DNA of 64,000 nt, taken from positions 22,376,243-22,440,242 of the forward strand of contig CM028333.1 of the NCBI GenBank assembly GCA_016647705.1, given 5' to 3'. The translations under genes and the position numbers were made by a program. Source of the stretch: Eucommia ulmoides. Its lineage: Eukaryota > Streptophyta > Magnoliopsida > Garryales > Eucommiaceae. The number at the start of each line of letters is the position of its first letter. Position 1 is the stretch's first letter. This document shows positions 7,881-52,578 of this stretch, one piece after another. The notes under the pieces were generated by a model that worked only from the letters and a program-made list of their open reading frames with translations, was not told the DNA's origin and did no database searches.

Positions 7881-8317
7881 GGTAAAGTTTAAAAATTTAT
7901 ATCGAAAGATGTCCAAGATTTTTTGACACTCATCTAGCTAAGACAAATCATCCTATTTTATTTCCTCTTAGATCAAAATCTCTTTTAGTATCAAAATCAT
8001 ATTCACCATGATCAAGCAAATTCTAAGCACATAGATCACACACATATAGTTTTGGAATATTTTGAAAAATAAACATTAAACATTTGAGTCATAGTCTAGG
8101 TAACATAGTAGCATTTACTAAAAGGTTGAAGCCATCTACAAAGTAAATCATCTACTATCTAGAAGGCAAACTAAAAAGTAAGGTGGATTTTAAAAAAAAT
8201 TCCCAATTTTATCGAAATTTATCTCAGTTGACTAAGTTTACAAGTGGTACCCTCAGGTTAGACTTTGGCTTGTAATGGGATGACATCTTCTAATAAAGCT
8301 TAGGAACAATTAAAGTT

Positions 8318-17299: not shown

Positions 17300-18580
17300 A
17301 AGAGATGTGATGAAGTGTTTCAAATTTTAGAGCCAGAATTCATGAAACCTGAAGCTTAAATTTAAGCTCAAATTTCGAAGTTTAACATCCACAAACCGAA
17401 ACATCAATAGATCTTATTAGATTTTCAACATGCAACAATTTTCACGAAAAAAACAATGCTAAAATTTCAGGTTCAAATCACCGGCAAAGACGACACGAAC
17501 CCATAATTTTCACAGTAAATCTTCGTACAGAAACCAAAACATCAATAAGTCTGATTAGATTTTCATTATTGGGGAGAAAGAGAATCAATTAGAGTTTTAA
17601 GGCAAACGTGGGAGTGGGAGGCGGGAGAAACTAATAAATTTGTGAAGCTTGGGGCTAGAAATAAGGGACGATCGTGGGAGGGAAAGGTGTAGAAAGTAGG
17701 ATCATGGTTTTGAGTTTCTAGGGCTGGAAATGGGTGTAAATGCGATGAAGTGTTTCAAATTTCAGAGCCTAACTTCATGAAACCTAAAGCTCTTAACATC
17801 CACAAACCGAAACATCAATAAATCTGATTAGATTTTCAACACGCAACAATTTTCATGAAAAAAACAAAGCTAAAATTTCAGGTTCAAGTCACTGGCAAAG
17901 ACGACACGAATCCATAATCTTTATAGTAAATCTTCGTACAAAAACCGAAAACATCAATAAATTTGATTAGATTTTCATTACTGGGGAAAAAAAGAATCAA
18001 TCTGAGTTTTAAGATGTATGTAGGAGTGGGAGGTGGGAGAAATTGATGAATTTGTGAAGCTTAGGGCTGGAAATGATGGACGATCGTGGGAGGGGAAGGT
18101 GTAGAAGGTCGGATCGTGGCTGTGAGTTTCTAGGGTTGGAAATGGGTGTGAATTGGACATAGAGTTTCAAATTTCAGAGCCTGAATTCATGAAGCCTAAA
18201 GCTCAAATTTCTAAGTTTAACATTCACAAACTGAAACATTAACAAATCTGATTATATTTTCAACACGCAAGAATTTCCATAAAAACAACAAAGCTAAAAT
18301 TTCAGGTTCAAGTCAACGGCAAGGACAACGCAAATCCATAATTTTCACAGTAAATCTTCGTATAGAAACCAAAAACATCAATAAATCTGATTAGATTATC
18401 ATTATTGGGGAAAAAGAGAATCAATCTGAGGTTCAAGGCGAATGTGGGAGTGGGAGTTGGGAGAAACTAATGAATTTGTGAAGTTTAGGACTAGAAATAA
18501 GGGACGATTGTGGGAGGGGAAAGTTGTAGAAGGTGGGATCGTAGCTTTGAGTTTCTAGGGACGGAAATGAGTATGAATGG
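17300..18580. repeat. Three tandem copies of a ~420-bp unit
   Basis: Units start near 17307, 17744 and 18155, each with (G)AAGTGTTTCAAATTT.AGAGCC or a variant. They run through CACAAACCGAAACATCAATA, a ...TCACAGTAAATCTTCGTA block and GTGGGAGTGGGAG, and end near GAGTTTCTAGGG.TGGAAATG. Lengths are about 437, 411 and 425 bp. The minus strand has short open frames repeating SH..FPTLET.SHDPTF peptides, but each copy has different breaks, so I do not call a gene. A run of 23 A residues (18587-18605 region) follows the last copy. Confidence 0.85.
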
Positions 18581-31110: not shown

Positions 31111-31309
31111 GTGGACCTAAGCTGAATTCCTTCAGGTTTTAACATTGTTTCTCTACACCTCTTATTTCCTCTTCAATCCTCAAATCAGTTTTAGCATGCA
31201 AAACAATCCTAAGCATCTAACCTTATCAATTTACCACAAAAAATTAATATAACGAGATCAATACGATCTCCAAAAAGGTATTTATACAAAAGTTGGGAAT
31301 ATTCATTAC

Positions 31310-31871
31310 GAGTTGTTTACCTATTAAATATTAAAAAAAAATTGATTTTTTTTTTTTTTTTTTGATCCCTCGCTTGTGAACGGCGGGATCAAAAAAATAT
31401 AATTTAATTTGATCCCGCCCTTCACAAGGGCGGGATCAGTTAATTTTTTTTTTTTTTTTTATTTGATCCCGCCCTTCACAAGGGCGGGATCAAATTAATT
31501 TTTTTTTTTTTTTTTTAAATGTGATCCCGCTCTTGTGAAGGGCGGGATCACTTCACGGCGACCAGCCGTTAGCACGACTGGTCGTCGTCTTCTTTGGCCG
31601 GTCATTTGACCGGCCAAAGCTGCAAAGAAGGTAGCCTAAAAAGGCTACCTTCTTTTCCCTCTTTTTTTTTATAGGTTTATAGGTTTTAGCTTTAATTTGA
31701 AATTTTAAAATCTCGGTATATGTGCACAATTTCGCCTATAAATATCACTTGCCGAATTTCATTAAAATTCACACTTCTTCATTTGCTCCTTCTCTCATTT
31801 GTTCTTCATTTTGATATTTTTTTGTTCTAGTTACACTTCTTCTATTCAGACTTCTACTCCTCTATTCACAG
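31310..31871 (+). repeat. Left terminal inverted repeat of the MULE
   Basis: From the outer end: the 20-bp tip and a T-run, then four near-perfect palindromes with arms GATCCCGCCCTT (31364-31552) separated by poly-T/AT tracts. Next come a hairpin with TTGGCCGGTCA arms (about 31592-31617) and one with AGAAGGTAGCCT arms (31625-31654), then a TATA box and a leader. The right end (48933-49558) has the same parts in the same order, inverted. Confidence 0.9.
31736..31871 (+). promoter_or_regulatory. Promoter and leader exon in the left terminal repeat
   Basis: CTATAAATA at 31736-31744 is followed by a CT-rich leader ending CTATTCACAG|GTTAGT, with the donor GT at 31872-31873. The same box, leader and donor occur in inverse orientation in the right repeat. 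The first downstream plus-strand gene is the mobile-domain gene, whose ATG lies just after a splice acceptor (TTTCAG, 38221-38226). I infer that this exon is its 5' leader. Promoters within terminal repeats that drive the internal genes are established for MuDR. Confidence 0.6.
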
Positions 31872-31879
31872 GTTAGTAT

Positions 31880-34800
31880 ATTTTTAACGTTTTTTTAATT
31901 TATTTGTTAATTTAATTAGTATATTTTTTACCTTTATTTGTTAGTTAGTTGGTTAGTTTAATTTGTTAATTTAATTGTTGAATTAAAAATTATACTTTGG
32001 CCATTTTCACATGTTTAAGAAAATATAAAATAATATATTATTTAAAAAAAATGTTAGTTAGTTAGTTTAATTTTTTACTCTAGCTATTTAATTAAAAAAA
32101 TATGTACTTTGACCCCTAAAAGTATAACAACTAGAAAAATATAAATTTTTAATATATTATTTTAAAATAAATTATTAGTTAGTTAGTTTGTTTTGTTAAT
32201 TTAATTTGTTAGTTTAGTTGTTTAATTAGTTGGTTAGTTTAATTTGTTAATTTACTTGTTAAATTAAAAATTACACTTTGTCTCCTTTCACATGTGTAGA
32301 AAAATATACACTTTGGCCCTTGAAATTTTTTCAATTACAAAAATATAAAATTTTCAACTTATTGTTTTAAAATAAATTGTTAGTTAGTTTCATTTTTGAA
32401 TTTTGTTATTTAATTTAAAATGTATTTATTTAATTTGTTAATTTAATTGTTAAATTAAAAATTACACTTTCGCCCCATGTGTACGAATATATAAATTAAC
32501 ATATTACATTTTTAGTTAGTTTAATTTTCTAATTTAGCTATTTAATTAAAATACACTTTGGCCCCTGAAATTTTGATAATTAGAAAAATATAAAACTAAA
32601 ATACCTATTATTTGTTTTATTTGTTAATTTAGTTTTTAAATTAAAAATTAGACATTCGCCCCTTTCACATGTGTAGGAAAATATAAATCAACATATTACA
32701 TTTTTAGTTAGTTTAATTTTCTAATTTAGCTATTTAATTAAAAATATACACTTTGGCCTCTTAAATTTTGATAATTAGAAAAATATAAAATTAAAATACC
32801 TATTATTTGTTTAATTTAGTTGTTAAATTAAAATTTACACTTTCGCCCCTTTCACATATGTAGGAAAATATAAACTTTGGCCCTTGAAATTTTTTCAATT
32901 AGAAACATATTAAATATTCAACCTATTGTTTTAAAATAAATTGTTAGTTAGTTTCATTTTTTAATTTCGTTATTTAATTTAAAATGTATTTATTTAATTT
33001 GTTAATTTAGTTGTTAAATTAAAAATTACACTTTCGCCCCTTTCACATGTGTAGGAAAATATACACTTTGGCCCTTTAAATTTTTTCAATTATAAAAATA
33101 TTAAATATTCAACCTATTGTTTTAAAATAAATTGTTAGTTAGTTTAATTTTTTAATTTCATTATTTAATTTAAAATGTATTTATTTAATTTGTTAATTTA
33201 GTTGTTAAATTAAAAATTACACTTTCTCCCCATGTGTACGAAAATATAAATCAACATATTACATTTTTAGTTAGTTTAATTTTATTATTTAGCTATTTAA
33301 TTAAAAATACACTTTGGCCCCTGAAATTTTGATAATTAGAAAAATATAAAATTAAAATATCTATTATTTGTTTTATTTGTTAATTTAGTTTTTAAAATAA
33401 AAATTAGACTTTCACCCCTTTCACATGTGTAGGAAAATATAAATCAACATATTACATTTTTAGTTAGTTTAATTTTTCTAATTTAACTATTTAATTAAAA
33501 ATATACACTTTGGCCCGTGAAAATTTGATAATTAGAAAAATATAAAATTAAAAAACCTATTATTTTGTTTAATTTGTTAATTTAGTTATTAAATTAAAAA
33601 TTACACTTTCGCCCCTTTCACATGTGTAGGAGAAAATATACACTTTGGCCCTTGAAATTTTTTCAATTAGAAAAATATTAAATATTCAACCTATTGTTTT
33701 AAAATACATTGTTAGTTAGTTTCATTTTATAATTTCGTTATTTAATTTAAAATGTATTTATTTAATTTGTTAATTTAGTTGTTAAATTAAAAATTACACT
33801 TTCGCCCCTTTCACATGTGTAGAAAAATATAAATCAACATATTACATTTTTAGTTAGTTTAATTTTTTAATTTAGCTATTTAATTAAAAATATACAATTT
33901 GGCCCCTAAAATTATGATAATTAGAAAAATTTAAAATTAAAATACCTATTATTTGTTTAATTTAGTTGTTAAATTAAAAAGTACACTTTCGCCCCTTTCA
34001 CATGTGTAGGAAAATATAAATCAACATATTACATTTTTAGTTAGTTTAATTTTCTAATTTAACTATTTAATTAAAAATATACACTTTGGCCCCTAAAATT
34101 TTGATAATTAGAAAAATATGAAATTAAAATACCTATTATTTGTTTTATTTTTCGTTAATTTAGTTATTAAATTAAAAATTATACTTTCGCCCCGTTCACA
34201 TGTGCAGGAAAATATACACTTTGGCCTTTGAAATTTTTTCAATTAAAAAAATATTAAATATTAAACCTATTGTTTTAAAATAAATTGTTAGTTAGTTTTA
34301 TTTTTTAATTTCGTTATTTAATTTAAAATGTATTTATTTAATTTGTTAATTTAGTTGTTAAATTAAAAATTACACTTTCGCCCCATGTGTACGAAAATAT
34401 AAATCAACATATTACATTTTTAGTTAGTTTAATTTTCTAATTTAGCTATTTAATTAAAAATACACTTTGGCCTCTGAAATTTTGATAATTAGAAAAATAT
34501 AAAATTAAAATACCTATTATTTGTTTTATTTGTTAATTTAGTTTTTAAATTAAAAATTAGACTTTCGCCCCTTTCACATGTGTAGGAAAATATAAATCAA
34601 CATATTACATTTTTAGTTAGTTTAATTTTCTAATTTAGCTATTTAATTAAAAATATACACTTTGGCCCATTAAATTTTGATAATTAGAAAAATATAAAAT
34701 TAAAATACCTATTATTTGTTTAATTTAGTTGTGAAATTAAAAATTACACTTTCGCCCCTTTTACATATGTAGGAAAATATACACTTTGGCCCTTGAAATT

Positions 34801-37800
34801 TTTTCAATTAGAAAAATATTAAATATTCAACCTATTGTTTTAAAATAAATTGTTAGTTAGTTTCATTTTTTAATTTCGTTATTTAATTTAAAATGTATTT
34901 ATTTAATTTGTTAATTTAGTTGTTAAATTAAAAATTACACTTTCGCCCCTTTCACATGTATAGGAAAATATAAATCAACATATTACATTTTTAGTTAGTT
35001 TAATTTTTTAATTTAGCTATTTAATTAAAAATATACACTTTGGCCCCTTAAATTTTGATAATTAGAAAAATATAAAATTAAAATACCTATTATTTGTTTT
35101 ATTTTTCGTTAATTTAGTTATTAAATTAAAAATTATACTTTCGCCCCGTTCACATGTGCAGGAAAATATAAATCAACATATTACATTTTTAGTTAGTTTA
35201 ATTTTCTAATTTAACTATTGAATTAAAAATATACACTTTGGCCCCTTAAATTTTGATAATTAGAAAAATATAAAATTAAAATACCTATTATTTGTTTAAT
35301 TTAGTTGTTAAATTAAAAATTACACTTTCGCCCCTTTCACATATGTTGGAAAATATACACTTTGGCCCTTGAAATTTTTTCAATTAGAAAAATATTAAAT
35401 ATTCAACCTATTGTTTTAAAATAAATTGTTAGTTAGTTTCATTTTTTAATTTCGTTATTTAATTTAAAATGTATTTATTTAATTTGTTAATTTAGTTGTT
35501 AAATTAAAAATTACACTTTCGCCCCTTTCACATGTATAGGAAAATATAAATCAACATATTACATTTTTAGTTAGTTTAATTTTTTAATTTAGCTATTTAA
35601 TTAAAAATATACACTTTGGCCCCTTAAATTTTGATAATTAGAAAAATATAAAATTAAAATACCTATTATTTGTTTTATTTTTCGTTAATTTAGTTATTAA
35701 ATTAAAAATTATACTTTCGCCCCGTTCACATGTGCAGGAAAATATAAATCAACATATTACATTTTTAGGTAGTTTAATTTTCTAATTTAACTATTTAATT
35801 AAAAATATACACTTTGGCCCCTTAAATTTTGATAATTAGAAAAATATAAAATTAAAATACCTATTATTTGTTTAATTTAGTTGTTAAATTAAAAATTACA
35901 CTTTCGCTCCTTTCACATATGTTGGAAAATATACACTTTGGCCCTTGAAATTTTTTCAATTAGAAAAATATTAAATATTCAACCTATTGTTTTAAAATAA
36001 ATTGTTAGTTAGTTTCATTTTTTAATTTCGTTATTTAATTTAAAATGTATTTATTTAATTTGTTAATTTAGTTGTTAAATTAAAAATTACACTTTCGCCC
36101 CTTTCACATGTATAGGAAAATATAAATCAACATATTACATTTTTAGTTAGTTTAATTTTTTAATTTAGCTATTTAATTAAAAATATACACTTTGGCCCCT
36201 TAAATTTTGATAATTAGAAAAATATAAAATTAAAATACCTATTATTTGTTTAATTTAGTTGTTAAATTAAAAATTACACTTTCGCTCCTTTCACATGTGT
36301 AGGAAAATATAAATCAACATATTACATTTTTAGTTAGTTTAATTTTCTAATTTAACTATTTAATTAAAAATATACACTTTGGCCCCTTAAATTTTGATAA
36401 TTAGAAAAATATAAAATTAAAATACCTATTATTTGTTTAATTTAGTTGTTAAATTAAAAATTACACTTTCGCCCCTTTCACATGTGTAGGAAAATATACA
36501 CTTTGACCCTTGAAATTTTTTCAATTAGAAAAATATTAAATATTCAACCTATTGTTTTAAAATAAATTGTTAGTTAGTTTAATTTTTTAATTTCATTATT
36601 TAATTTAAAATGTATTTATTTAATTTGTTAATTTAGTTGTTAAATTAAAAATTACACTTTCTCCCCATGTGTACGAAAATATAAATCAACATATTACATT
36701 TTTAGTTAGTTTAATTTTATAATTTAGCTATTTAATTAAAAATACACTTTGGCCCCTGAAATTTTGATAATTAGAAAAATATAAAATTAAAATACCTATT
36801 ATTTGTTTTATTTGTTAATTTAGTTTTTAAATTAAAAATTAGACATTCGCCCCTTTCACATGTGTAGGAAAATATAAATCAACATATTACATTTTTAGTT
36901 AGTTTAATTTTCTAATTTAGTTATTTAATTAAAAATATACACTTTGGCCCCTAAAATTTTGATAATTAGAAAAATATAAAATTAAAATACCTATTATTTG
37001 TTTTAGTTGTTAATTTAGTTTTTAATTTAAAAATTAGACTTTCGCCCCTTTCACATGTGTAGGAAAATATAAATCAACATATTACATTTTTAGTTAGTTT
37101 AATTTTTTAATTTAGCTATTTAATTAAAAATATATACTTTGGCCCCTAAAATTATGATAATTTGAAAAATATAAAATTAAAATACCTATTATTTGTTTAA
37201 TTTAGTTGTTAAATTAAAAAGTACACTTTCGCTCCTTTCACATGTGTAGGAAAATATAAATCAACATATTACATTTTTAGTTAGTTTAATTTTCTAATTT
37301 AGTTATTTAATTAAAAATATACACTTTGGCCCCTAAAATTTTGATAATTAGAAAAATATAAAATTAAAATACCTATTATTTGTTTTATTTTTCGTTAATT
37401 TAGTTATTAAATTAAAAATTATACTTTCGCCCCGTTCACATGTGTAGGAAAATATAATCTTTGGCCCTTGAAATTTTTTCAATTAAAAAAATATTAAATA
37501 TTAAACCTATTGGTTTAAAATAAATTGTTAGTTAGTTTTATTTTTTAATTTCGTTATTTAATTTAAAATGTATTTATTTAATTTGTTAATTTAGTTGTTA
37601 AATTAAAAATTACACTTTCGCCCAATGTGTACGAAAATATAAATCAACATATTACATTTTTAGTTAGTTTTATTTTCTAATTTAGCTATTTAATTAAAAA
37701 TACACTTTGGCCTCTGAAATTTTGATAATTAGAAAAATATAAAATTAAAATACCTATTATTTGTTTTATTTGTTAATTTAGTTTTTAATTTAAAAATTAG

Positions 37801-37988
37801 ACTTTCGCCCCTTTCACATGTGTAGGAAAATATAAATCAACATATTACGTTTTTAGTTAGTTTAATTTTCTAATTTAGTTATTTAATAAAAAATATACAC
37901 TTTGGCCCCTAAAATTTTGATAATTAGAAAAATATAAAATTAAAATACCTATTATTTGTTTAATTTGTTAATTTAGTTGTTAAATTTT
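31880..37988 (+). repeat. Left tandem array of the MULE (6.1 kb)
   Basis: AT-rich units of roughly 190-200 bp in two alternating kinds share a segment (AAATTACACTTTCGCCCCTT then CACATGTGTAGGAAAATAT). They then diverge. One continues AAATCAACATATTACATTTT...CTATTTAATTAAAAATATAC; the other continues ACACTTTGGCCCTTGAAATT...ATTTAATTTAAAATGTATTT. The order of kinds is irregular, with local higher-order duplications (for example 34740-35640 and 35300-36200). No frame is open for any length. If the leader intron proposed here is real, nearly the whole array is intron. Confidence 0.93.
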
Positions 37989-38190
37989 GATAGGCGAAAA
38001 TGTCCATCCCGACCATGCCTTGCACCCAATTGATTTTGTCGGTTTATTGTAATGAATGTTTATGCTACTTTATTTTTTTGTTATGTCAACTTTTATGTAT
38101 TATAAATTTTATGCACTTGTCGCGCACATTTCTTTATAATGAATCTTATATTTTGTTTATAAATATGATTAAATTTTAATTTCGTACTAA
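37989..38190 (+). repeat. Copy of the mudrA 3' end upstream of the mobile-domain gene
   Basis: About 200 bp match 42318-42516 in inverse orientation with few differences. They cover the last codons of mudrA (DRRKCPSRP...APN, stop) and about 150 bp of its 3' untranslated sequence. The copy starts at a GATA shared with the adjacent array unit and ends about 35 bp before the mobile-domain gene's first exon. Confidence 0.9.
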
Positions 38191-38228
38191 CAAATTTACC
38201 ACGAGTGTTGTGGGAAAAAATTTCAGCT

Positions 38229-40629
38229 ATGCATCCTGGGCCTGAAGATACTTCAGTTCTACACCAACAGGGGCAGCACAGGTCCGAACTAGTTTGGTTA
38301 GTGCAGGTAAACATTTAGGTTATTGCATTCTTTTTTTTTTTTTTATTTTAGTTTTTTAATTTTTTAATGTTATTTATTATGTCTCATTAAATGTTTCAGG
38401 ATATCAATACTTTTGACTGTGTTGGACACGATATAGGGGAATGGAGAGAAAATGTTCCCCCTAGAGTTATACAGTTAATAGAATCAGTCGGTTTGTACGG
38501 CCCATTTAGGTTGTGGCCGAAGCGGTTAGATAGGGCCCTCATAACCGCGTTGGTAGAGAGATGGCGTCTGGAGACGCACACTTTCCATCTACCTGTCGAG
38601 GAGATGACTGTCACATTGCAGGACGTGACCGTCTTATTGGGGTTACCCGTGCATGGGTTGCCAGTTATCCAGAATGATGACTCGCATGAGGATACCGTCT
38701 GGCAGAGACTCTGCGGTGAGCTACTCGGAGTGCAACCACCAGTGGATAAGATTAAGAATGGGTCTTTGACGCTGAAGTGGTTACGGGATACCTTTGCTAT
38801 AGTTCCTGACGAGGCCGACGAGGAGGTTATGCATTGCTACGCACGTGCATATTGCTTGCTTATGCTTGGTGAGATGTTATTTTCTGATAAATCACACAAC
38901 AGAGTTAAGTTAGCCTACCTCCTACTGCTGCGTGACTTGACACCTTTCGTCAAGTATAGCTGGGGCAGTGCGACCCTAGCGATCCTCTACCGCGAGCTCT
39001 GTAAGGCGACGAAGCCCAACACGAAACACATTGCCGGGTGCCTATTTTTGTTGGAGTGTTGGGCTTGGGAACGATTTCCAAGGCTTCGACCTGAAGTAGT
39101 CCCTCTCCCTGACTATAATATATCATTCGGAGACCTCGACTACGGCGACGACTTGAAGTTCCCAACTGCTCCGAGGGGTTCTTGGTAAGTAATTAGTATT
39201 TTCTTTTTAATTTCATTTATCATGTAATAGATATTTATTTATGGATATTAAATTTATGATTTATATTTTTGGTGTACAGGTGGACTCTTCAATTTAATTT
39301 GGATAATTTGTCGATGCATATTTTGGTGGTGTATCGCGATCAGTTAGATCGCTTGAAGAATGACGAGGTTATTTATTTACTTATATCGAAATTTTAATTT
39401 TTTTATTTGTTTGTTTATATTTTATTTTACAGGTCATTTGGATGCCCTATACCTTGCCGACTTTGCCTCCATATACTAAAGATAGAGAAGATATTTGGAT
39501 GGCAAAGTTGCCCCTAATATGCTATGAGATTGTCAAGTACACGTATCCCCTCCGCGTGTTACGACAGTTTGGTTATTGCCAGGGGTTCCTGAACCGGTAA
39601 TGTGGGACAGGAACTTGCACAAAATTACTCGGCGAGGATACTTCCGTGCAAACTGGGCTGACCATCACCATGCACATATAGTTGCGTGGAATAATCGGCA
39701 AGCACCAGATGTCGGCAACTTCGAGCAAGGGATAGGGGTTGACCAAGAATACATAGATTGGTATTGGCGAATCACACGAAGATTTTTGGTCAACCCGGCG
39801 TACCAACCTCAGTTTGGGTATCTACCAATAGGAGGACGACTGGGATTAGATGTATGATCACATTGACTGTACCATCTGTTTAGTTATATGAGTTAGATTA
39901 TATTGTTATTATTCATGTATTAATTAAACCAATTTATATGTTTCGTAGGATACGGAGGTATCAAACCTGATACGCTTGAGTGATCTAACTCTGCAGTCGG
40001 GTACTGCAGAATCGGGTATCGAGCTGGCTCATGATATCAATGATGGAACCATTGGGAGGATGTACCGAGGAGTACCACGCCATGTGGCAGCTGACGTTCC
40101 TTCATCTCCTCAGGCTGCTCCTCAGCCTTCTCCTTAGCCATGGACTTCTGATGCCTATCGTCCAAGTAGTGTGGGCGATGCCGAACCTTCTACATCGTAC
40201 GGCATGGGCACTTATGCTGAATCATCTAGTACGTATGGCATGGGCGCTCATGCCGAATCATCTAGTTCGTACGGCATGGGTGACGATGCTGGGCCATCCA
40301 ACGTGTACCAGATGCATGACCCTTATTCGCATTACGCATCACAGCTAGGTACACACCCGTCATCGTCATTCGTCACTCCGGAGATGGATGAATTTATTTC
40401 AACTTCAGGCGTCATTCCTCCAGTGGCATTTGTCGAACCCACAAGATTGCAAAGACAAGTGTCGCCGGTGCCGTGGTTCGAGGACGACGTCGATGCTATC
40501 CCGGGGAGTATGCATCAGGAGTTCACGATCTTCGGACAAGTTACACAAGTTCATGAGGAGGCTGAGGAACCTCCTATTGTACAACGACGAGAGCGGAGAA
40601 ACGTTCGTCGGAGGCCTTGCGGTACATAA
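38229..40629 (+). pseudogene. Plant mobile domain (PMD) protein gene, five coding exons
   Basis: Predicted exons are 38229-38306, 38400-39184, 39280-39367, 39433-39851 and 39949-40629, all with GT/AG borders and matching phases. The protein starts MHPGPEDTSVL, then the aminotransferase-like plant mobile domain: GLYGPFRLWPKRLDRALITA, a VEEMTVTLQDV...LGLPV segment, LTLKWLRDTF, WAWERFPRLRP. A basic YIDWYWRITRRF segment follows, and a C-terminal tail with three SYGMG...AESSS repeats ends in RRERRNVRRRP. PMD proteins occur in plant transposons and as host genes (MAIN, MAIL1) that affect transposon silencing. Two lesions are visible: a frame shift near 39575-39583 and an in-frame TAG at 40135-40137. 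Otherwise it is well preserved, more so than mudrA. Confidence 0.85.
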
Positions 40630-41067
40630 TTAGTTATGTAGTTGATAGTTTAGTTATAGAAATGTAAATACATTTTTTTTGTAAATATATAGTTATATAG
40701 CAATTTATGTAGTTAGTAAATACATTTTTTTGTAACGTCTGGAGATTTAGAAAATTGTTGATCTACCGTATATATTGCTTCGCAAATAGATATAGAATTT
40801 GAATGGGAGATCGAGCAATGTGTCTAACATTCCGGAAAGATTCTTAAAAAGGCAAAACAACTCCTAACAGTATAATATTAAAGGCGATTAAAGTTAAAAT
40901 AATCATAAATATTATATTAAAAAAATATTACATAGACGGAAACATATTTAACGATATTTGTTACAAAACTCATAACAAAGACAGTATATAAGAAATACAG
41001 TACATAATATCATGAAAATAGTGACAATAAAAACACTTAAAAATAAAATACCAGAGCAAAAAATTAA
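40630..41067. other. Intergenic region between convergent MULE genes
   Basis: Presumed 3' ends of the plus-strand PMD gene and the minus-strand small ORF meet here. It is AT-rich with ACATTTTTTTGTAA repeats (40665-40735). No coding frame is seen. Confidence 0.55.
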
Positions 41068-41574
41068 TTATTCTTCATTCGACATGTACCCCTCAGACAA
41101 ATATTCATTGTTATTTATCACGTTATGGTATTCGTTTGGAGAGAGTGCTCTGTTGCTTGCGGCAACCATTTCATTGGCTAGTTGTAGTAGATAATATCTA
41201 TTTCTGCGTAACAACATTCGATTATTCTCCAAGCGAATTCGTGTAATAGCATCTTCAATCTCGGTTGTGTCATCAATTATACATCGTCGAGGCATCTGAA
41301 GACTTCGACGATGTGGAACTGGTGCATTAAGATTTCTCAAACAAAATACAAGGTTATTAGACTTATTCACCCTGTATTCCCATTCTTGGCGTAGACCGAC
41401 GCGATACTCTATCGGGTTGGTCTCTTGATCACTCCAGTAATCATCATAATATGGTTTTAAAACCCAACATCTTGGGTGATCCCATGGTCCATGCCAACTC
41501 CAAACACCATACGAGTTCTCCTCACTTGAAAAACCATATGAACTTTCTTCACTTGAATTAATATGTGAAGACAT
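41068..41574 (-). CDS. MULE accessory ORF b, 168 aa, unknown
   Basis: Uninterrupted frame from an ATG at 41574 to TAA. The first 25 residues are Ser/Glu-rich (SSEESSYGFSSEENSYG), followed by a Trp-rich stretch (WSWHGPWDHPRCW), then EYRVNKS (66-72), a basic middle, IRLENNRM (113-120) and RRNRYYLLQLANEM. The second half aligns with ORF a at 41866-42300 (shared YRVN.S, R...ENNRM..R and spacing), so the two are paralogues. No known domain is recognised. The frame stays open 48 bp upstream of the ATG to TTTGCAG, a possible splice acceptor. It lies downstream of mudrA on the same strand. Conservation of an open pair inside a decaying element suggests a real gene. Confidence 0.6.
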   Translation of the reverse strand: MSSHINSSEESSYGFSSEENSYGVWSWHGPWDHPRCWVLKPYYDDYWSDQETNPIEYRVGLRQEWEYRVNKSNNLVFCLRNLNAPVPHRRSLQMPRRCIIDDTTEIEDAITRIRLENNRMLLRRNRYYLLQLANEMVAASNRALSPNEYHNVINNNEYLSEGYMSNEE

Positions 41575-41865
41575 TACGAAAATTATAGGCTGAACAGTTT
41601 CTTTACAAATATTATACTGCAAATTAAGAGTTCACAAAAAAATTAGTTTTTTAAAAAGATAATTAATGAAAAATTATGTTTTATAACTTATGTACACGAG
41701 CCTTAAATTAAAAAAAAAAAAAACTAACCCAACATCACCTATCAATTGAAACAGAAAAAGTCAGTTGTTTGGTAGAAGTAACGTTATTATAATTTAACAT
41801 AGAAATGATACATTAGATTTCAAAGGAAATACATAATTAAACTACAATTCACCAACGTGAAAACA

Positions 41866-42300
41866 TTAAACATTACTCTCATCATCAGACATTTCAATAT
41901 CTGACTGATATTGAGGATTCTTTGCGTGTCTCATGTAAGTACGCGATTCGGCGAACAAACCTTGTTCAAGACGCTCACGTGCCGTCGTTTTAAGCTCATG
42001 TCGAAAAAATCGAATTTGCATTCGGTTATTTTCTTCACGGTAGCGATGCAACGCCATTTGAAGATTATGCGGCGTGTCTATTGGCATTGTTCTGGCCAAT
42101 TGACGCACTATTGGAATATTATATTGCCTCCATCCGTCCACCATAACCTCTGATTGGTTGACACGATAAGTATATTCCTCCCGCATCCTTGCAACCGACC
42201 GTGAAAAGTAACGAACTCTTGGATCTAAAGAGTATGATAATTCCTCTTCCAAAAGCCAGTTACGTCCCATTGAACGATACAAATCTCTCACCGTGTACAT
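41866..42300 (-). CDS. MULE accessory ORF a, 144 aa, unknown
   Basis: Uninterrupted frame from an ATG at 42300 to TAA at 41866. It is rich in R and E (basic middle, acidic tail ...DIEMSDDESNV). Residues 38-50 (RMREEYTYRVNQS) and 84-100 (RYREENNRMQIRFFR) match ORF b at 41068-41574. The C-terminal half is predicted helical. It starts about 170 bp after the mudrA stop on the same strand. I do not recognise the family. Mutator elements often carry a second gene of unclear function, such as mudrB in maize, but I see no similarity I could claim to it. Confidence 0.6.
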   Translation of the reverse strand: MYTVRDLYRSMGRNWLLEEELSYSLDPRVRYFSRSVARMREEYTYRVNQSEVMVDGWRQYNIPIVRQLARTMPIDTPHNLQMALHRYREENNRMQIRFFRHELKTTARERLEQGLFAESRTYMRHAKNPQYQSDIEMSDDESNV

Positions 42301-42471
42301 TTTCAATCCTTTTCATTTTAGTACGAAATTAAAATTTAATCATATTTATAAATAAAATATAAGATTCATTATAAAGAAATGTGCGCAACAAGTGCATAGA
42401 ATTTATCATACATAACAGTTGACATAACAAAAAAAAATAGCATAAACATTCATTACAATAAACCGATAAGA

Positions 42472-45269
42472 TCAATTGGGTGCATGGCGGGGTCGGGATG
42501 GACATTTTCGCCTATCATGTCCAGTTTGGGAACATAAACCGCAATGATTTGTCATTGTTCTACGCGATTGATCCATCTCGTTTTGAATGCGAGTGGAATT
42601 TGGTCAACCACGATGCACAACTCGAAGTCTATCATGGTCTGGAATGAGGTTCGAAAAATTGGTCTCTGGCCAGTAGTCCTCATGAATAATCGGCCGAAAC
42701 GAAGACTCCCATGCGATGAATTGGTTTGTCATTGTATACACAGCAGCAATATAGCGGAATGCATTAACTCCACTATACTCCGTGGCCGCAAGCATATGGG
42801 AGCACGGATATCACCAAATTTTAAACTTCCCACATGCAATCAGGGTTATCTCCTAGTGTGACTTCATGAGGAATCAAGCCCCCAGTAAGAGTCTTCCTAG
42901 TTTTCACATGGAAGATCATATTCTCTCTAGAAAAAAAAATATTTAGTTGTTAAATTATGTCGTAACAATTATATGTAACGTGAAAAAATAATAATGAATA
43001 CTAAATTACCGATTGAATATTTGAATCTCGTATGTTTTAGACTTGGCTTGAGATTTCTGTATTTTATCAACGACGTTTTAGCATATACGTAACCGTCAGC
43101 TGAGTCCTTTAAAGCTTGTTGTCGACCAATATCAAAGTATTTAACCATCCTGTAGAACGTAATCTTGACGGCTGCAGTTATTGGAACATTTCTTGCACCC
43201 TTTAAACAGTTGTTAAATACCTCTGCATAATTGGTCGTCATGACTCCCCAACGCTTACCATTGTCGTGTGCCCTGGTCCATTTGTAAGGTGCATGATTGC
43301 TCAACCATGCATGCGCCTGAACATCAATCTTTTTGATCTCTTCCATGATAGCATCGTATTTTCGAATTTGTGTTGCAGCACCTGCATTCCAAGCAAGATC
43401 TTTGAGATGCTGATTTTTAGCAATCTTATTGAAATTGCTACAAAGGTGCCGCAAACAAAATCGATGATATCAGAGGGGCTCGTTATGTTGATTAAGCCAA
43501 ATATTGTCAACTGCACTAATAATGCTGGCGTGTCTATCAGATATCAATGTAACCTTAGGACGATCACCGACAATATGACGCTTAAGCATGTAGATGAACC
43601 ATCGCCAACATCGGTAATCCTCCGTCGGTACGACTGCAAAAGCCAATGGGTAGCACTTGTTGGACGACGTCATTCCTATGGCGATTAAAATCTTTCTCTC
43701 ATATTTACCATACAAATGGGTCCCGTCAATGGTGATTACAGGACGACAATAACGCCATCCGTCAACTGAAGCTTTGAATGCCCAAAATACCATGTCGAAC
43801 ATCCTATAGTCAGGCATATCAGTCGACACAGTGCTCCACTCGACAATCGTACGTGCATTATAGTGCTGCAACGCGACCATAAACTTCGGTAACTTCCGGT
43901 ATGATTCATCCCAATCTCCGAACAAGGTCTCAATGGCTTTAGATCTAGCCAACCAAGCTTTTATATAGGAGATAGTATATCCATAAGCCTCCTTCACGTA
44001 AGCCACAATGACGCCAATCTTCAATTCTGGATCCTGTTCGACTTGTCCAAGTATTAGGTTCGAAATGAGTGCAGAATCCAAATTTTTATGATCTACAGTA
44101 GTATGATTATAGAAACATGTGTGTTGCCCCTCATACTGTGTAATCTCAAACATACCGTGACTTTTTTTCCTTCCCGCCCACAACCTCCAATCGCATCCAT
44201 GCGAACAATTAATCGACTAGAGCTTCTTGTTCATTTGCGAGACATAAAACTCTTTGTTCTTTTTCAAGTGGTAAAATTTGACGGCCTGCTGGAGATGTTC
44301 CTTGTCCTTAAAGACCATACCGGTACGAAATTCGTCCATCTCCGGTGTCCAAAAATTCTTCCCCAACTTCGGCTCGTATTTCGCCAAGTCATCGTCGTCA
44401 CCCCAATCCAAGTTATTGAAAAATAAAATTACATTGTCCAACTCCAATTGCTGATTTTGACCCCCTTGCCCGCTAGGCCCAGCATCTAGATCTTCGTCTG
44501 GCTGAAACGCAACATCCGCATCTGACTCTTCTTCTGACATATCGTGGCGACTATCAATTGTATCAAAGTCACCACCATAATTACTTATGTTATCTTGCGG
44601 CGGACTACTCGGCGAATAATGGGGATGTGGAAGAGCAGAGCTGGTGCCATGACCACGGTCAATCATACTATGAGAATGATCTTGCTCTGGAATATAGGGG
44701 AGTGGGACGGTGTAATTAGACTCAAGTAATTGGGGGTGCAACATAGGAGTATTGTGGAAATGATATTGTTCTAGACTGTAAGGGGGTGGGATGGTGTAAC
44801 TAGATTGGACTGCTTGGAGAACGGTGCCGAAAAATTATCCGTCAGATTGGGTACTGTGCGGATTTAAACTCTGGGTCATTAAGCTGGTAAAATGACCACT
44901 TGGGGGAAAAAAATTTGGACCATCATCAAATGCTCGTTCTATCTCTACATACACTTCAACAGCAAGAAGGAAGGGTATATAAAGAGGTAACTCAAGCACT
45001 TGATTTAATGCTGAGTCATCCTCGATAGAAAACAAGGTATATTTATAGTTCGACCCGAAAAGAGCCATCGGCATCCTACACTTTAGTTTCAAAATTCCAG
45101 TAACCCCATCTTCAAGAACACATGGTTTTAGCGTCTCAATTAATTCATTTAAGATTGTTCCCCTATGGACAACCAAAGATTTTACAACTGATGTACTATA
45201 ACAAACTCCGAACTCCGTACCTTCCAATATTCTACCACCCCAATACAATAACAACCGAACGTGATCCAT
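42472..45269 (-). pseudogene. mudrA: mudrA-type MULE transposase, broken
   Basis: The minus strand starts at ATG 45269 with a PB1-like N-terminal region (to about 44930). An acidic linker and MuDR DNA-binding region follow (WTPEMDEFRTGMVFKDKEHL, then CSHGCDWRLWAGRK near 44190). The transposase core has VITIDGTHLYGKYE (first Asp, near 43730) and LISDRHASI (second Asp, near 43540), and a helical region to 43010. An intron probably lies at about 43007-42925. The SWIM zinc finger (CGKFKIW...YPCSHMLAA, near 42810) and a C-terminal zinc knuckle (CGLCSQTGHDRRKC, near 42520) end it. Lesions are in-frame stops near 44836, 44218 and 43468, plus a frame shift and stop in the SWIM finger. It would cut and join element ends in the nucleus if intact. 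Confidence 0.92.
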
Positions 45270-45640
45270 TTCAAGCGGCTATCATTTGACAAGGCAAAAC
45301 AAAACAAGAAAATAATATCGTTAACTAAAACTCAATCACAAAAGTATGTTGGTTTATAGTGTTCATTTTTTATGGGTTAGAGTAATTTATTTTCAATCCT
45401 TAATATTTTACTTATTTTGAATTTATTCAATAATTATTTTAACTTTAACTCTAAATCGAATATAAATTCCACGTCAAGCTTATATCAACTAAATAGATTC
45501 AATTAATTTGAGGAATGAAAGTGCACAATTTGTACATCATATTCCAATGTTTGTAGTGTTAATTTTTTATGGATTTCAGTAATTTATTTTCAATCTTAAC
45601 ATTTTACTTACCAATATAACAAGTTTAATAAACTAACCAA
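45270..45640 (-). other. mudrA upstream region with possible splice acceptor
   Basis: Just before the ATG the minus strand reads TCAAATGATAG|CCGCTTGAA, a possible acceptor at 45279. The rest is AT-rich and leads into the right tandem array. The acceptor is weaker than that of the mobile-domain gene. Confidence 0.4.
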
Positions 45641-48600
45641 AAATTATTTTATATAAGTTTAAACAAATACATTTTAAATTAAATAACGAAATTCAAAAAA
45701 TGAAATAAATTAACAAATTAAACAAAGAATAGGTATTTTAATTTTATATTTTTCTAATTATCAACTTTTCAGGGGCCAAAATGTATATTTTTAATTAAAT
45801 AGCTAAATTAGAAAAGTAAACTAACTAAAAATGTAATATGTTGATTTATATTTTCCTACATATGTGAAAGGGGCGAAAGTGTAATTTTTAATTTAACAAC
45901 TAAATTAAACAAATAATAGGTATTTTAATTTTATATTTTTCTAATTATCAAAATTTAAGGGGCCAAAGTGTATATTTTTAATTAAATAGCTAAATTAGAA
46001 AATTAAACTAACTAAAAATGTAATATGATGATTTATATTTTCCTACACATGTGAACGGGGCGAAAGTGTAATTTTTAATTTAACAACTAAATTAACAAAT
46101 TAAACAAAATAATAGGTATTTTAATTTTATACTTTTCTAATTATCAAAATTTAAGGGGCCAAAGTGTATATTTTTAATTAAATAGTTAAATTAGAATATT
46201 AAACTAACTAAAAATGTAATATGTTGATTTATATTTTCCTACACATGTGAACGGGGCGAAAGTGTGATTTTTAATTTAACAACTAAAATAAATAATAGGT
46301 ATTTTAATTTTATATTTTTCTAATTATCAAAATTTAAGGGGCCAAAATGTATATTTTTAATTAAATAGCTAAATTAGAAAATTAAACTAATTAAAAATGT
46401 AATATGTTGATTTATATTTTCCTACACATGTGAAAGGGGCGAAAGTGTAATTTTTAATTTAACAACTAAATTAAACAAATAATAGGTATTTTAATTTTAT
46501 ATTTTTCTAATTATCAAAATTTAAGGGGCCAAAGTGTATATTTTTAATTAAATAGTTAAATTAGAAAATTAAACTAACTAAAAATGTAATATGTTGATTT
46601 ATATTTTCCTACACATGTGAAAGGGGCGAAAGTGTAATTTTTAATTTAACAACTAAATTAACAAATTAAATAAATACATTTTAAATTAAATAACGAAATT
46701 AAAAAATGAAACTAACTAACAATTTATTTTAAAACAATAGGTTGAATATTTAATATTTTTCTAATTGAAAAAATTTCAAGGGCCAAAGTGTATATTTTCC
46801 TACACATGTGAAAGGGGCGAAAGTATAATTTTTAATTTAATAACTAAATTAACAAATTAAACAAAATAATAAGTATTTTAATTTTATATTTTTCTAATTA
46901 TCAAATTTTTACGGGCCATAGTGTATATTTTTAATTAAATAGCTAAATTAAAAAATTAAACTAACTAAAAATGTAATATGTTGATTTATATTTTCCTACA
47001 CATGTGAAAGGGGCGAAAGTGTAATTTTTAATTTAACAACTAAATTAACAAATTAAATAAATACATTTTAAATTAAATAACGAAATTAAAAAATGAAACT
47101 AACTAACAATTTATTTTAAAACAATAGGTTGAATATTTAATATTTTTCTAATTGAAAAAATTTCAAGGGCCAAAGTGTATATTTTTCTACACATGTGAAC
47201 AGGGCGAAAGTGTAATTTTTAATTTAACAACTAAAATAAATAATAGGTATTTTAATTTTATATTTTTCTAATTATCAAAATTTAAGGGGCCAAAGTGTAT
47301 ATTTTTAATTAAATAGCTAGATTAGAAAATTAAACTAACTAAAAATGTAATATGTTGATTTATATTTTCCTACACATGTGAAAGAGGCGAAAGTGTAATT
47401 TTTAATTTAACAACTAAATTAACAAATTAAATAAATACATTTTAAATTAAATAACGAAATTGAAAAATGAAACTAACTAACAATTTATTTTAAAAAAATA
47501 GGTTGAATATTTAATATTTTTCTAATTGAAAAAATTTCAAGGGCCAAAGTGTATATTTTTCTACACATGTGAAAGGGGCGAAAGTTTAATTTTTAATTTA
47601 ACAATTAAATTAAACAAATAATAGGTATTTTAATTTTATATTTTTCTAATTATCAAAATTTAAGGGGCCAAAGTGTATATTTTTAATTAAATAGTTAAAT
47701 TAGAAAATTAAACTAACTAAAAATGTAATATGTTGATTTATATTTTCCTACACATGTGAAAGGGGCGAAAGTGTAATTTTTAATTTAACAACTAAATTAA
47801 CAAATTAAATAAATACATTTTAAATTAAATAACGAAATTAAAAAATGAAACTAACTAACAATTTATTTTAAAACAATAGGTTGAATATTTAATATTTTTC
47901 TAATTGAAAAAATTTCAAGGGCCAAAGTGTATATTTTCCTACACATGTGAAAGGGGCGAAAGTGTAATTTTTAATTTAACATCTAAATTAAACAAATAAT
48001 AGGTATTTTAATTTTATATTTTTCTAATTATCAAAATTTAAGGGGCCAAAGTGTATATTTTTAATTAAATAGCTAAATTAAAAAATTAAACTAACTAAAA
48101 ATGTAATATGTTGATTTATATTTTCCTACACATGTGAAATGGACTAAAGTCTAATTTTTAATTTAAAAACTAAATTAACAAATAAAACAAAATAATAGGT
48201 ATTTTAGTTTTATATATTTCTATTTATCAAAATTTCAGGGGCCAAAGTGTATTTTAATTAAATAGCTGAATTAGAAAATTAAACTAACTAAAAATGTAAT
48301 ATATTGATTTATAATTTCGTACACATAGGGCGAAAGTGTAATTTTTAATTTAACAACTAAATTAACAAATTAAATAAATACATTTTAAATTAAATAACAA
48401 AATTCAAAAATGAAACTAACTAACAATTTATTTTAAAACAATAGGTTGAAAATTTTATATTTTTGTAATTGAAAAAATTTCAGGGGCCAAAGTGTATATT
48501 TTTGTACACATGTGAAAGGAGACAAAGTATAATTTTTAATTTAACAACTAAATTAACAAATTAAACTAACCAACTAATTAAACAACTAAACCAACAAATT

Positions 48601-48920
48601 AAATTAACATAACAAACAAACTAACTAATAATTTATTTTAAAATAATATATTAAAAATTTATATTTTTCTAGTTGTTAAACTTTTAGGGGTCAAAGTGCA
48701 TTTTTTTTTAATTAAATAGCTCGAGTAAAAAATTAAACTAACTAACTAACATTTTTTTTTAAATAATATATTATTTTATATTTTATTAAACATGTGAAAA
48801 TGACCAAAGTATAATTTTTAATTCAACAATTAAATTAACAAATTAAACTAACCAACTAACTAAAAAATAAAGGTAAAAAATATACTAATTAAATTAACAA
48901 ATAAATTAAAAAAACGTTAA
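45641..48920 (-). repeat. Right tandem array of the MULE (3.3 kb)
   Basis: Same unit family as 31880-37988 but in inverse orientation, with the same two unit kinds (complement of the ACTTTCGCCCC and ACTTTGGCCC segments). It is about half as long as the left array. With the terminal repeats, the arrays make the element a giant imperfect inverted repeat with a 7-kb loop. Confidence 0.93.
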
Positions 48921-48932
48921 AAATATACTAAC

Positions 48933-49066
48933 CTTTGAATAGAGGAGTAGAAGTCTGAATAGAAGAAGTGTAACTAGAACAAAAAATATCAAAATGAAGA
49001 ACAAATGAGAGAAGGAGCAAATGAAGAAGTGTAAATTTTAATGAAATCCGGCAAGTGATATTTATA
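48933..49066 (-). promoter_or_regulatory. Promoter and leader exon in the right terminal repeat
   Basis: Inverse of the left structure: TATAAATA at 49066-49059 on the minus strand, a CT-rich leader, and CTATTCAAAG|GTTAGT with the donor at 48932-48931. Its downstream gene is mudrA. Box, leader and donor are kept in both repeats even though the outer hairpins differ in number, which argues for function. Confidence 0.6.
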
Positions 49067-49558
49067 GGCGAAATTGTGCACATATACCGAGTTTTTTTAA
49101 AATTTCAAATTAAAGTATACCTATAAAGTATACCTATAGACTATATAGGCAAAAGAAGGTAGCCTAAAAGGCTGCCTTCTTTTCTTGCAGCTTTGGCCGA
49201 TCGTTTGACCAGCCAAAGCAGACGGCGACCAGCCGTGAAGTGATCCCGCCCTTCACAAGGGCGGGATCACATTTAAAAAAAAAAAAAAAAAAAATTAATT
49301 TGATCCCGCCCTTGTGAAGGACGTGATCAAATAAAAAAAAAAAAAATTAACTGATCCCGCCCTTGTGAAGGGCGAGATCAAATTAAATTATTTTTTTTTA
49401 TCCTGCCGTTCACAAGCGCGGGATCAAAAAAAATAAAAAATAAAAAAAAATTCAATTTCGCCCTTCACAAGGGCGAAATGCATTAGACCGGTAAATAAGT
49501 TAAAAGGTATTCTGTTTCAGTATTTTTTTTTTTTAATATTTAATAGGTAAACAACTCT
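48933..49558 (-). repeat. Right terminal inverted repeat of the MULE
   Basis: Contains five palindromes with CGCCCTT-type arms (49240-49475), one more than the left repeat. The outermost has changed arms (TTTCGCCCTT). A segment absent from the left (about 49476-49530) adjoins it. The hairpins with AGAAGGTAGCCT and TTTGGCC arms (49147-49222) match the left but have extra mismatches. Ends GGTAAACAACTC at 49558. Confidence 0.9.
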
Positions 49559-49641
49559 ATTCGTTACCCTTGATGTCACGTCAAAAAAAAAATGTTGCTT
49601 AGTTTTACGTCCCTAGCATGGACGTTTCAAGAATTCCGGCT

Positions 49642-51117
49642 TTATCCTTCAACGAGGGAGATATTCTCCACAACTCGCTCTTCATTTTTGAAGTAATGCT
49701 TGATCCGCTCCCCGTTGACTCGGAAAGTACGTCCGTCTTCGGCTTCTAGCTCGATAGCTCCAAAAGGATAGATATGCTTGATCCGGAACGGTCCAAACCA
49801 CTGAGACTTCAACTTTCCGGGAAAGAGCCTCAGCCTTGAATTAAACAATAAGACTTGTTGGCCCGGACTGAACTCCCTCCGGACTATCATTTTGTCATGC
49901 CATCTCTTCATTTTTTCTTTGTAGAGCTTGGCATTCTCATAAGCCTCGTGCCGGAATTCCTCCATTTCATTTAATTAGAGGAGACGTTGCGCACCAGAAG
50001 CTTTTATGTCAAAATTGAGTTTCTTGATCGCCCATAATGCACGGTGCTCCAATTCAACGGGCAAATGGCAAGCTTTCCCAAACACCAATCGATACGGCAA
50101 CATACCGATCGGTGTTTTAAAAGCCGTGCGATACGCCCATAAAGCATCATCAAGCTTCACTGCCCAATCCTTGCGATTTGTATAAACCGTCTTTTCCAGA
50201 ATGAGCTTGATCTCACGGTTTGAAACTTTCGCTTGGCCATTTGTCTGTGGGTGGTATGGTAGCGCCACCTTGTGCCTCACTCCATACTTTGCCAACAAGG
50301 CATTGAGCATTTTGTTACAGAAGTGGATCCCCTCATCACTGATTAAGGCTCGAGGTGTCCCGAATTGTGTCATGACATTATGTTGAAGGAACTTTAACAC
50401 CACTTTGGCATCATTAGTAGGTGTTGCCACGGCCTCGACCCATTTGGACACATAATCCACCGCTAGCAGAATATACTCCTTGCCAAATGAGGGCGGAAAT
50501 GGCCCCATGAAATCCAATCCCCACACGTCAAACAACTTAAGCTCAAGAATTGACGTCAGTGGCAGTTCATGCCTCCTTGATATGTTACCTACCCTTTGAC
50601 ATCTATCACAGGTTTTTACAAACGTATATGAATCTTTAAACAAAAAGGGCCAGTAAAAACCTGATTGCAGTACTTTTGATGCCGTGCGAGTCGCACCGAA
50701 ATGGCCGCCACAAGGTGATGAATGGTAATGGTAGAGAATACTAGCCATTTCCTCTTCCGGAACATATCTCTGGATCACCTGATCAGCACATTTCTTGAGT
50801 AGCAACGGCTCGTCCCACAGATAGTACTTAGTATCAAAAAGAAATTTCTTCCTTTGTGCATATGTCAAGTCATGTGGTAACACGCCACATGCAAGATAAT
50901 TAACAATGTCAACATACCACGGAAGTGCATTTTCTACTGAAAAGAGTTGTTCATCAGGGAACACTGCCGTGATATTAGACTCGTCACCAACGTCTTCTTG
51001 AATCAACCTCGACAAATGGTTGGCAATAACGTTCTCACTCCCCTTTTTGACCCTTATCTTCACATCAAACTCTTGTAATAAGAGAATCCACCTAATCAAC
51101 CTTGGCTTGGCATCTTT
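49642..51117 (-). pseudogene. pol: Athila-1 integrase (with end of RNase H linker)
   Basis: The minus-strand frame 51099-49975 starts in the linker after RNase H. The HHCC zinc finger ([12 protein letters not shown]...CDRCQR) lies near 50750-50600. The core has [11 protein letters not shown] and ISDEG. The third catalytic position, normally Glu in QTNGQxExxNR, is Lys here (QAKVSNRE, near 50230). After a stop at 49972-49974 the C-terminal domain continues from 49965 to 49642 (GPFRIKHIYPFGAIEL and a GERIKHYF end). A stop also separates it from RT at 51118. The Lys change would abolish strand transfer even without the stops. Confidence 0.93.
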
Positions 51118-52578
51118 CTAAGCAAATAAGTACCGGATAGCCGCGTGATCTGTGTAGATGATCACTTTTGACCCAATGATGTATGAACGAAACTTATCAC
51201 AAGCAAAGACCACCGCTAGCATTTCTTTCTCCGTTGTGGTGTAATTCTCCTGGGCGTCATTCAATGTTTTGCTTGCATAATAGATCGAGCGGAAGATCTT
51301 CTCCTTCCGTTGGCCTAACACCGCGCCAACAGCATAGTCACTCGCATCGCACATTATCTCAAATGGCATTTCCCAATCCGGAGTGACCATTATTGGAGCC
51401 GAGATCAACTTCTCCTTTATCGCCATACAAGTTTCATTGAATTCAAACAAAGTATCCTTCTCAAGAAGGTGACATAGTGGCTTCACCGTCTTCGAGAAGT
51501 CCTTAATAAAGCGCCGGTAAAAGTCGGCATGCCCCAAGAAACTTTGAACTCCTTTCACATTTATTGGTGGCGGAAGCTTCTCAATCGTTTTTATCTTTGC
51601 TCGGTCCACCTCAAGCCCCTTGGCAGAGACTCTATGACCTAAGACGATCCCCTCTTTAACCATAAAGTGGCACTTTTCCCAATTTAGAACCAAATTCTTT
51701 TCTTCACATCGGTCAAGAACAAGCGCCAGATTGTAGAGACAGTGATCAAAGGACGATCCAAAGACTGAGAAGTCATCCATAAATATTTCCATTTTCTCCT
51801 CCACCATATCAGAAAATATCGCCATTATACACCGTTGGAAAGTTGCTGGTGCATTGCAAAGGACAAATGGCATACGTCGATATGCAAACGTTCCATACGG
51901 GCATGTGAAAGTTGTCTTCTCTTGGTCCTCTGGTGTAATGGCTATTTGATTGTAACCGGAATAGCCATCAAGGAAGCAGTAGTACTCATAACCGGATAAA
52001 CGATCTAGCATTTGATCAATGAAAGGAAGAGGAAAATAATCTTTCCTCGTTGCCTTATTTAATCTCCGATAATCAATACATACACGCCACCCTGTGATGG
52101 TCCGTGTCGGAATAAGGTCATCTTTTTCATTCTTTACTACCGTCATGCCTCCTTTCTTTGGCACTACTTGCATCGGGCTCACCCACTCACTGTCGGATAT
52201 GGCGTATATAATCCCCGCATTTAATAGCTTCAACACCTCCGCTCTCACCACTTCCTTCATAGCCGAATTTAGCCGCTGTTGATGTTCAATGGAGGGTTTG
52301 AACGTATCCTCCATCAAAATCTTATGCATGCACACCGACGGACCAATTCCCTTGATATCCGAAATAGACCACGCAAAAGCGGATCGGTGCCGCTTCAAGA
52401 TTCTTAGTAACTTACTCTCCTCTTCTTCTGTCAGAGTTAATGAAATTATAACTGGATCGGTCAAATTCTCTCCCAAAAGGATATACCAAAGGTGTTCCGG
52501 TAATTGCTTGAGTAATAACCCACCGTGAGGCGAATTTGATTTCTCGGAAAAGTCTTCAACTTGTTCAATCTCCGCCAC
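51118..52578 (-). pseudogene. pol: Athila-1 reverse transcriptase and RNase H
   Basis: 486 codons open on the minus strand. RT motifs run in order: RVCIDYRRLNKATRKDYFPL, FLDGYSGYNQI, MPFVLCNAPATFQRC (Val replaces the usual Gly) and the catalytic IFMDDFSVFG. RNase H has MCDASDYAVGAVLGQ, TTTEKEMLAVV and IYTDHAAIRYL, so D, E and D are present. Both joints to the neighbouring domains are single stop codons (52606-52608 upstream, 51118-51120 downstream). The domain itself is uninterrupted, which marks a young copy. It would copy element RNA into DNA in cytoplasmic particles. Confidence 0.95.

Follow-up and report, generated by a model that had tools for sequence, protein, structure and literature searches.

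A decayed copy of a four-gene MuDR-type transposon family with a PMD gene and a paired smA-smB cassette

The stretch of DNA analysed here (the window; 64,000 nucleotides, C9:22376243-22440242) contains a MuDR-type cut-and-paste transposon in decay, one copy of a family whose own four genes are the transposase gene mudrA, a PMD gene and two small genes, smA and smB. As far as the open-licence literature shows, the smA-smB protein family, its spread and apparent exchange, and the rearrangement in which mudrA changed place and a 203-bp stub stayed behind are new; no mention of the smA-smB pair was found in that literature, where the family has no name to search by. The transposon family makes it testable why MULEs carry PMD genes, having young near-identical copies, cleanly marked insertions, and extra genes that are complete and under selection. 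It also presents a small plant transposon protein pair without a Pfam match that recurs in other genera and seems to pass from one transposon lineage to another as a unit, behaviour that would suit an anti-silencing or helper module.

The window element and its genes

The whole element occupies 31310-49557 (18,248 bp) and carries its end motif on both sides: GAGTTGTTTACC begins the element at 31310 and the complement of GAGTTGTTTACC terminates it at 49557. The flanks TATTCATTAC and TATTCGTTAC are 10 bp long and differ at one position. A preliminary description had the element delimited by inverted repeats and a 9-10-bp duplication, which the matching ends and the 9/10-bp flanks bear out; of the span that it gave, 31310-49558, the start is correct and the end is one base too long. 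The parts outside the genes are as follows.

31300..31309, + strand: left target-site duplication TATTCATTAC, from comparison of the ends
31413..31650 (element positions 104-341): six GC-rich palindromes near the left end
31736..31873, + strand: TATAAATA box-like site and downstream splice-donor-like GT in the left arm, reading inward
32423..37986: left array of ~187/378-bp AT-rich tandem repeats
45715..48370: right array of ~187/378-bp AT-rich tandem repeats, inverted
48921..49067, - strand: TATA-like and donor-like sites in the right arm, as in the left arm
49156..49478 (element positions 17847-18169): four GC-rich palindromes near the right end
49558..49567, + strand: right target-site duplication TATTCGTTAC, 9/10 identical to TATTCATTAC

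Assignment to the MULEs was based on a MULE transposase domain, terminal inverted repeats and a target duplication of 8-11 bp. The domain PF10551 scores above its cut-off in the window and in two other loci (L025 and L029), the window element has terminal inverted repeats, and the target duplications measure 10 bp, with 9/10 identical bases in the window and 10/10 in the copies on C5, C6, C11 and C3. Directly outside the right end, the - strand holds open reading frames at 49642-52578 that were judged by eye to be integrase- and reverse-transcriptase-like, and from these frames the MULE appears to lie beside or inside a gypsy-type retroelement.

Within the element, the PMD gene lies on the + strand, while mudrA (two exons), smB and smA follow one another in reading order on the - strand.

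37988..38190, + strand: stub, an inverted copy of the mudrA end and its 3' side (42318-42517), 93% identity, 95% of aligned bases
38229..38306, + strand: PMD exon 1
38400..39184, + strand: PMD exon 2, first half of PF10536
39280..39367, + strand: PMD exon 3
39433..39851, + strand: PMD exon 4, second half of PF10536 (domain seen in L025)
39949..40629, + strand: PMD exon 5 with ~36-bp tandem repeats and one stop
41068..41622, - strand: smA, 184 aa, open
41866..42306, - strand: smB, 146 aa, open
42472..42926, - strand: mudrA exon 2 (SWIM and CCHC region), broken; SWIM domain seen in L025
43010..45269, - strand: mudrA exon 1 (DNA-binding and MULE domains), broken; 757-codon open frame in L025

This gene content agrees with the mudrA gene, five-exon PMD gene and two paralogous small frames described earlier, as judged by domains, splice borders and comparison of the reading frames. 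In the window, PF10536 reaches 196.9 bits against a cut-off of 34.9, and both halves of the domain are present in L025; five PMD exons can be read with GT/AG borders, which supports the earlier count. The smA and smB proteins (184 and 146 aa) are 34% identical over 108 aa (E 5e-11). The best protein match of the PMD exon is in Fagus, at 52% identity. The window stretch 38391-39188, which covers this exon, also gives a weak DUF1985 match (E 0.0023) below the cut-off; DUF1985 is known from ULP-type MULE genes. The last PMD exon contains a 36-bp tandem repeat, with 2.9 copies in the window (40178-40280) and 7.4 in a second subfamily (C2 element 7711-7975).

The window copy is broken by stops and length changes in mudrA and PMD, while smA and smB are open. 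Its mudrA has stops at 44837, 44219, 43472 and 42606, sites at which every other copy with sequence has a sense codon (10/10, 10/10, 8/8 and 7/7, respectively), and its mudrA exon 1 falls 1 nt short of the length in six of seven full copies. PMD exon 4 is likewise 1 nt shorter than in all seven full copies, and the last PMD exon holds one stop. The window gene core differs by 2.5-2.9% from the other full copies, whereas four of these (L014, L017, L024 and L025) are mutually 99.5-99.7% identical over the gene core. Thus, the window copy is older or faster decaying, in a family that has recently multiplied.

Recurrence and two gene orders in the genome

The genome searched comprises 946,670,599 bases in 391 contigs, and its listing for PMD holds 143 matches, with 117 of 2460 candidates scored. 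We fetched 23 loci, which are not a random sample since most were chosen for an open frame near 265 aa. PMD, smA and smB occur together in 16 of the 23, and nine of these have mudrA in the window order. Among the first 20 loci, ten are near-copies of the window (L014-L017 and L020-L025; PMD exon 95-97% identical): L014, L015, L017, L021, L023, L024 and L025 have all four genes in the window order, and L016, L020 and L022 lack part of the set. Seven further loci form the second subfamily, with a PMD 66-69% identical to that of the window; six of them (L009-L013 and L018) have both small genes at 83-87% identity, and no small gene was found in the fetched stretch of the seventh, L019. None was found in the fetched stretches of L026-L028 either (PMD 61-74%), of which L028 is a mudrA and PMD relative. 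The last three loci comprise two with four genes in the window order (L032 and L034) and one of subfamily 2 with both small genes (L033).

Both ends were reached in four more window-type copies, on C5 (12,261 bp), C6 (15,127 bp), C11 (13,964 bp) and C3 (15,085 bp), and all four have perfect 10-bp duplications, each of a different sequence. Their left arms and that of the window copy vary in array copy number, so that the elements measure between 12.3 and 18.2 kb. A subfamily-2 copy on C2 (L029:541 to L011:6863, 12,323 bp) has related ends, GAGTTGTTTAC, and reading of both ends gave no matching target duplication. Three of the seven full window-type copies (L014, L017 and L025) have no interrupting stop in the exons tested, which comprised all but the two short PMD exons; the one stop present lies at the 3' terminus of the segment taken for mudrA exon 1, where the 757-codon frame of these three copies terminates at a donor-like site. 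The set therefore recurs between the same ends in independent insertions, and copies free of interrupting stops exist, as the preliminary description had proposed to check. Recurrence in so many copies indicates that PMD, smA and smB belong to the element.

Genome-wide lists point in the same direction, and counts from the best 150 matches of each gene (smA, of 1496 candidates; smB, of 1649; catalytic piece of mudrA, of 4165) are lower bounds. Of the best 150 smA matches, 121 have smB 570-830 bp upstream on their own strand, and none of the 150 has it on the opposite strand within 2.5 kb. Among the matches listed, at least 36 of 65 PMD matches of the window class have smA or smB on the opposite strand within 9 kb, and none of the 28 of the other typed class has either gene within that distance. 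The best 150 mudrA matches divide into 72 with a same-strand small gene no more than 8 kb away, a few of them unusually spaced, 14 with an opposite-strand small gene at 4.5-5.6 kb and, among the matches listed, 13 with a same-strand PMD at 2.1-2.5 kb and no small gene, three with PMD opposite only, and 48 with neither PMD nor small gene; at least 18 have PMD, smA and smB all among the matches listed. The suggestion of a distinct MULE class thus holds in that the window gene order is frequent in the genome, and has to be qualified in that related mudrA and PMD MULEs lack the small genes (13 of the best 150; L028). A one-off capture, which would have spoken against the preliminary description, is contradicted by the 16 of 23 loci with PMD, smA and smB. 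As two-gene relatives exist, smA-smB is not needed by all members.

Two other groups of PMD sequences were seen in this genome. A cluster at C4:2507473-2604771 (L001-L008) has at least nine tandem PMD matches, six of them with a full-length domain and uninterrupted frames of 784-909 aa. The window PMD matches six of its loci at 25-27%, and the other window genes gave zero matches in L001-L008, so that by the window genes the cluster is not MULE-like. A further class extends PF10536 to position 346 with 7-8 TAA inside (e.g., C9:5391498 and C3:41740683) and has near-identical scores on many contigs, with at least 14 near-full-length entries among the matches listed; it is possibly intron-containing and retroelement-borne.

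Subfamily 2 has the same four genes as the window in a different order: mudrA and PMD share one strand, smA and smB follow on the opposite strand, and the element ends carry TATA-like and donor-like sites. Among the 14 copies with an opposite-strand small gene, one that was read over a 2-kb piece (L044) has PMD between mudrA and smA, on the mudrA strand, and this PMD is 92% identical to that of the window, so window-type sequence occurs in the other order too. The 203-bp stub at 37988-38190 stands directly before PMD, where the other order has mudrA, and the same stub is present in the C5 copy. The two copies of the stub stretch share 95% identity with each other and 83-87% with subfamily 2. 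From these comparisons, we infer that the window order arose by an inverted duplication of mudrA beyond smB and loss of the old copy.

Element ends and the smA-smB family

The 25 longest of 1296 inverted arm pairs measure 331-639 nt at 94-98% complementarity and are largely made of the ~187/378-bp AT-rich tandem arrays. An array in the subfamily-2 element on C2 (8850-9698; 4.5 copies) lies between PMD and smA and has a different unit; its 187-bp period is shared with the window arrays. The box-like and donor-like sites of the two arms may represent a promoter and a leader intron. A scan for GC-rich palindromes with arms of 9 bases gave 12 in the window element, of which 10 fall within its outer 400 bp, compared with 14 of 16 in the C5 copy and 11 of 16 in the C2 element; the background in the flanking window is 11 per 31,000 bases and 6 per 14,000 bases. 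Both subfamilies have the TATA-like and donor-like end sites and the palindromes. The first palindrome starts at base 83 in five of nine left ends scanned, from both subfamilies, and at base 104 in the left end of the window. The base-83 sequences themselves differ between left ends (GCCCTT type and CCCGGGG type), which suggests that the dyad is retained despite sequence change, as a protein site or a folded form.

Neither smA nor smB has a Pfam match, so their role is without support from sequence. Of 689 candidates, 39 proteins matched a profile of five members at E up to 1, and for 38 the E value was 2.1e-22 or better; they come from Rhododendron, Vaccinium, two Camellia species, Lithocarpus and metagenome contigs. 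The proteins share an ENNRM-like core and mostly an acidic SDxEMSDEE-like C-terminal tail. A midpoint-rooted tree of 41 rows splits with 100/100 support into 7 smA and 34 smB rows; both window rows have long end branches, and the window smB is not firmly placed within its clade. The smA clade has Rhododendron and Camellia members, and the smB clade has members from Camellia, Vaccinium and Lithocarpus together with one weak Rhododendron fragment (P0159, E 1.1e-4).

All four genes are under purifying selection between the two subfamilies (dN/dS 0.13-0.35; one pair). For that pair, L025 and the C2 element, a counting method with Jukes-Cantor correction gave dN/dS values of 0.19 for smA, 0.23 for smB, 0.23 and 0.35 for the PMD pieces, and 0.19 and 0.13 for the mudrA exons, with bootstrap upper limits of at most 0.57 throughout. 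The PMD and mudrA pieces have silent distances of 0.91, 0.71, 0.67 and 0.84, as against 0.30 for smA and 0.23 for smB. Identity over the 1.4-kb smA-smB stretch is 85.5-86.0% in all four subfamily-2 loci compared and 71-79% over the other aligned pieces, and it switches where mudrA was moved. That smA-smB is less diverged than mudrA and PMD in silent distance and identity fits an apparent exchange of the smA-smB cassette between MULE lineages after mudrA and PMD had split. The stretch might instead simply change slowly, with extra constraint at its silent and noncoding sites and no exchange. We consider this unlikely, as the high identity covers the whole 1.4 kb, noncoding parts included, in 4/4 loci against 71-79% in the flanking pieces, and silent distances of 0.23-0.30 stand against 0.67-0.91.

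Possible roles and comparison with known systems

It is probable, in our view, that PMD and smA-smB encode accessory proteins of this four-gene MuDR-type family that make expression or insertion of the element more likely; as a single mechanism, local counter-silencing or help to the transposase at the ends, rich in palindromes and repeats, is likeliest. Each end would have an inward-facing promoter that drives one gene block, the tandem arrays would be crossed as leader introns, and the transposase would act at the element ends. PMD may act on host PMD-dependent silencing, and smA and smB may act as a pair, given that they are kept together. The palindromes and arrays could be binding sites, by analogy with VANC proteins, whose targets are noncoding repeats within their own elements (PMC5735166). 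An anti-silencing role of MULE PMDs has already been proposed (Ikeda 2017, PMC5418596), and tea PMD genes and transposase genes yield phased siRNAs (PMC10673657), which makes a contest around PMD plausible. More tentatively, smA-smB may be an undescribed two-protein counter-silencing or helper cassette that has stayed paired across several plant orders, has passed between MULE lineages and acts together with PMD at the element ends with their palindromes and repeats, VANC-like and of separate origin.

MULEs often capture gene pieces (PMC2528002, PMC13317346) and two-gene relatives without the small genes exist, so PMD, smA and smB could be passengers, that is, host sequences acquired via transduplication that multiply only because the element does. 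The selection result disfavours such an origin: dN/dS between the subfamilies is 0.19-0.35 for smA, smB and PMD, as low as for parts of mudrA, the genes are complete and open rather than fragments in three of seven copies, and the smA-smB pairing and spacing are fixed, which together make mere passengers very improbable. We find it possible, if doubtful, that smA and smB are transposition helpers needed for insertion, like maize mudrB (PMC6446971, PMC9168764), and not silencing factors. They are small, adjoin mudrA and are kept with it in the window order; however, mudrB is transcribed against mudrA, and smA and smB lie on the mudrA strand in that order.

A PMD opposite the transposase, set against the classical MuDR plan in the preliminary description, is already in print (Dupeyron 2019, PMC6446971): the entry for the MUDR group reads 'PMD in antisense for most of them' and that for MULE-Solanaceae_1 reads 'unknown ORF and PMD (antisens)'. 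The MUDR, MUDRAVI2 and MDR groups of that paper share with the window family a SWIM-finger MuDR-type transposase, long ends, 9-10-bp duplications and an often antisense PMD, but its table does not name the smA-smB pair that the window family has. MULE-Solanaceae_1, likened by description only, shares one unknown ORF and an antisense PMD; its ends are given as 'None', whereas the window element has terminal inverted repeats. Grass and Amborella MULEs also carry a PMD, but fused to the transposase (PMC5418596), while the window PMD is a separate gene. Abermu type I, again by description, has a transposase accompanied by another ORF on the same strand and a further one, ORFR, on the opposite strand; the accessible part of PMC9168764 mentions no PMD for ORFR, whereas the opposite gene in the window is a PMD. 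The three-gene MULE VANDAL21 with VANC (Hosaka 2017, PMC5735166) shares tandem repeats in noncoding parts and is set apart, by description, by the PMD of the window element, none being mentioned for VANDAL21 in the accessible part of that paper. Finally, maize MuDR has in common a transposase plus helper between inverted ends, and at the level of gene plan alone the window family has a PMD gene and two small genes in place of mudrB.
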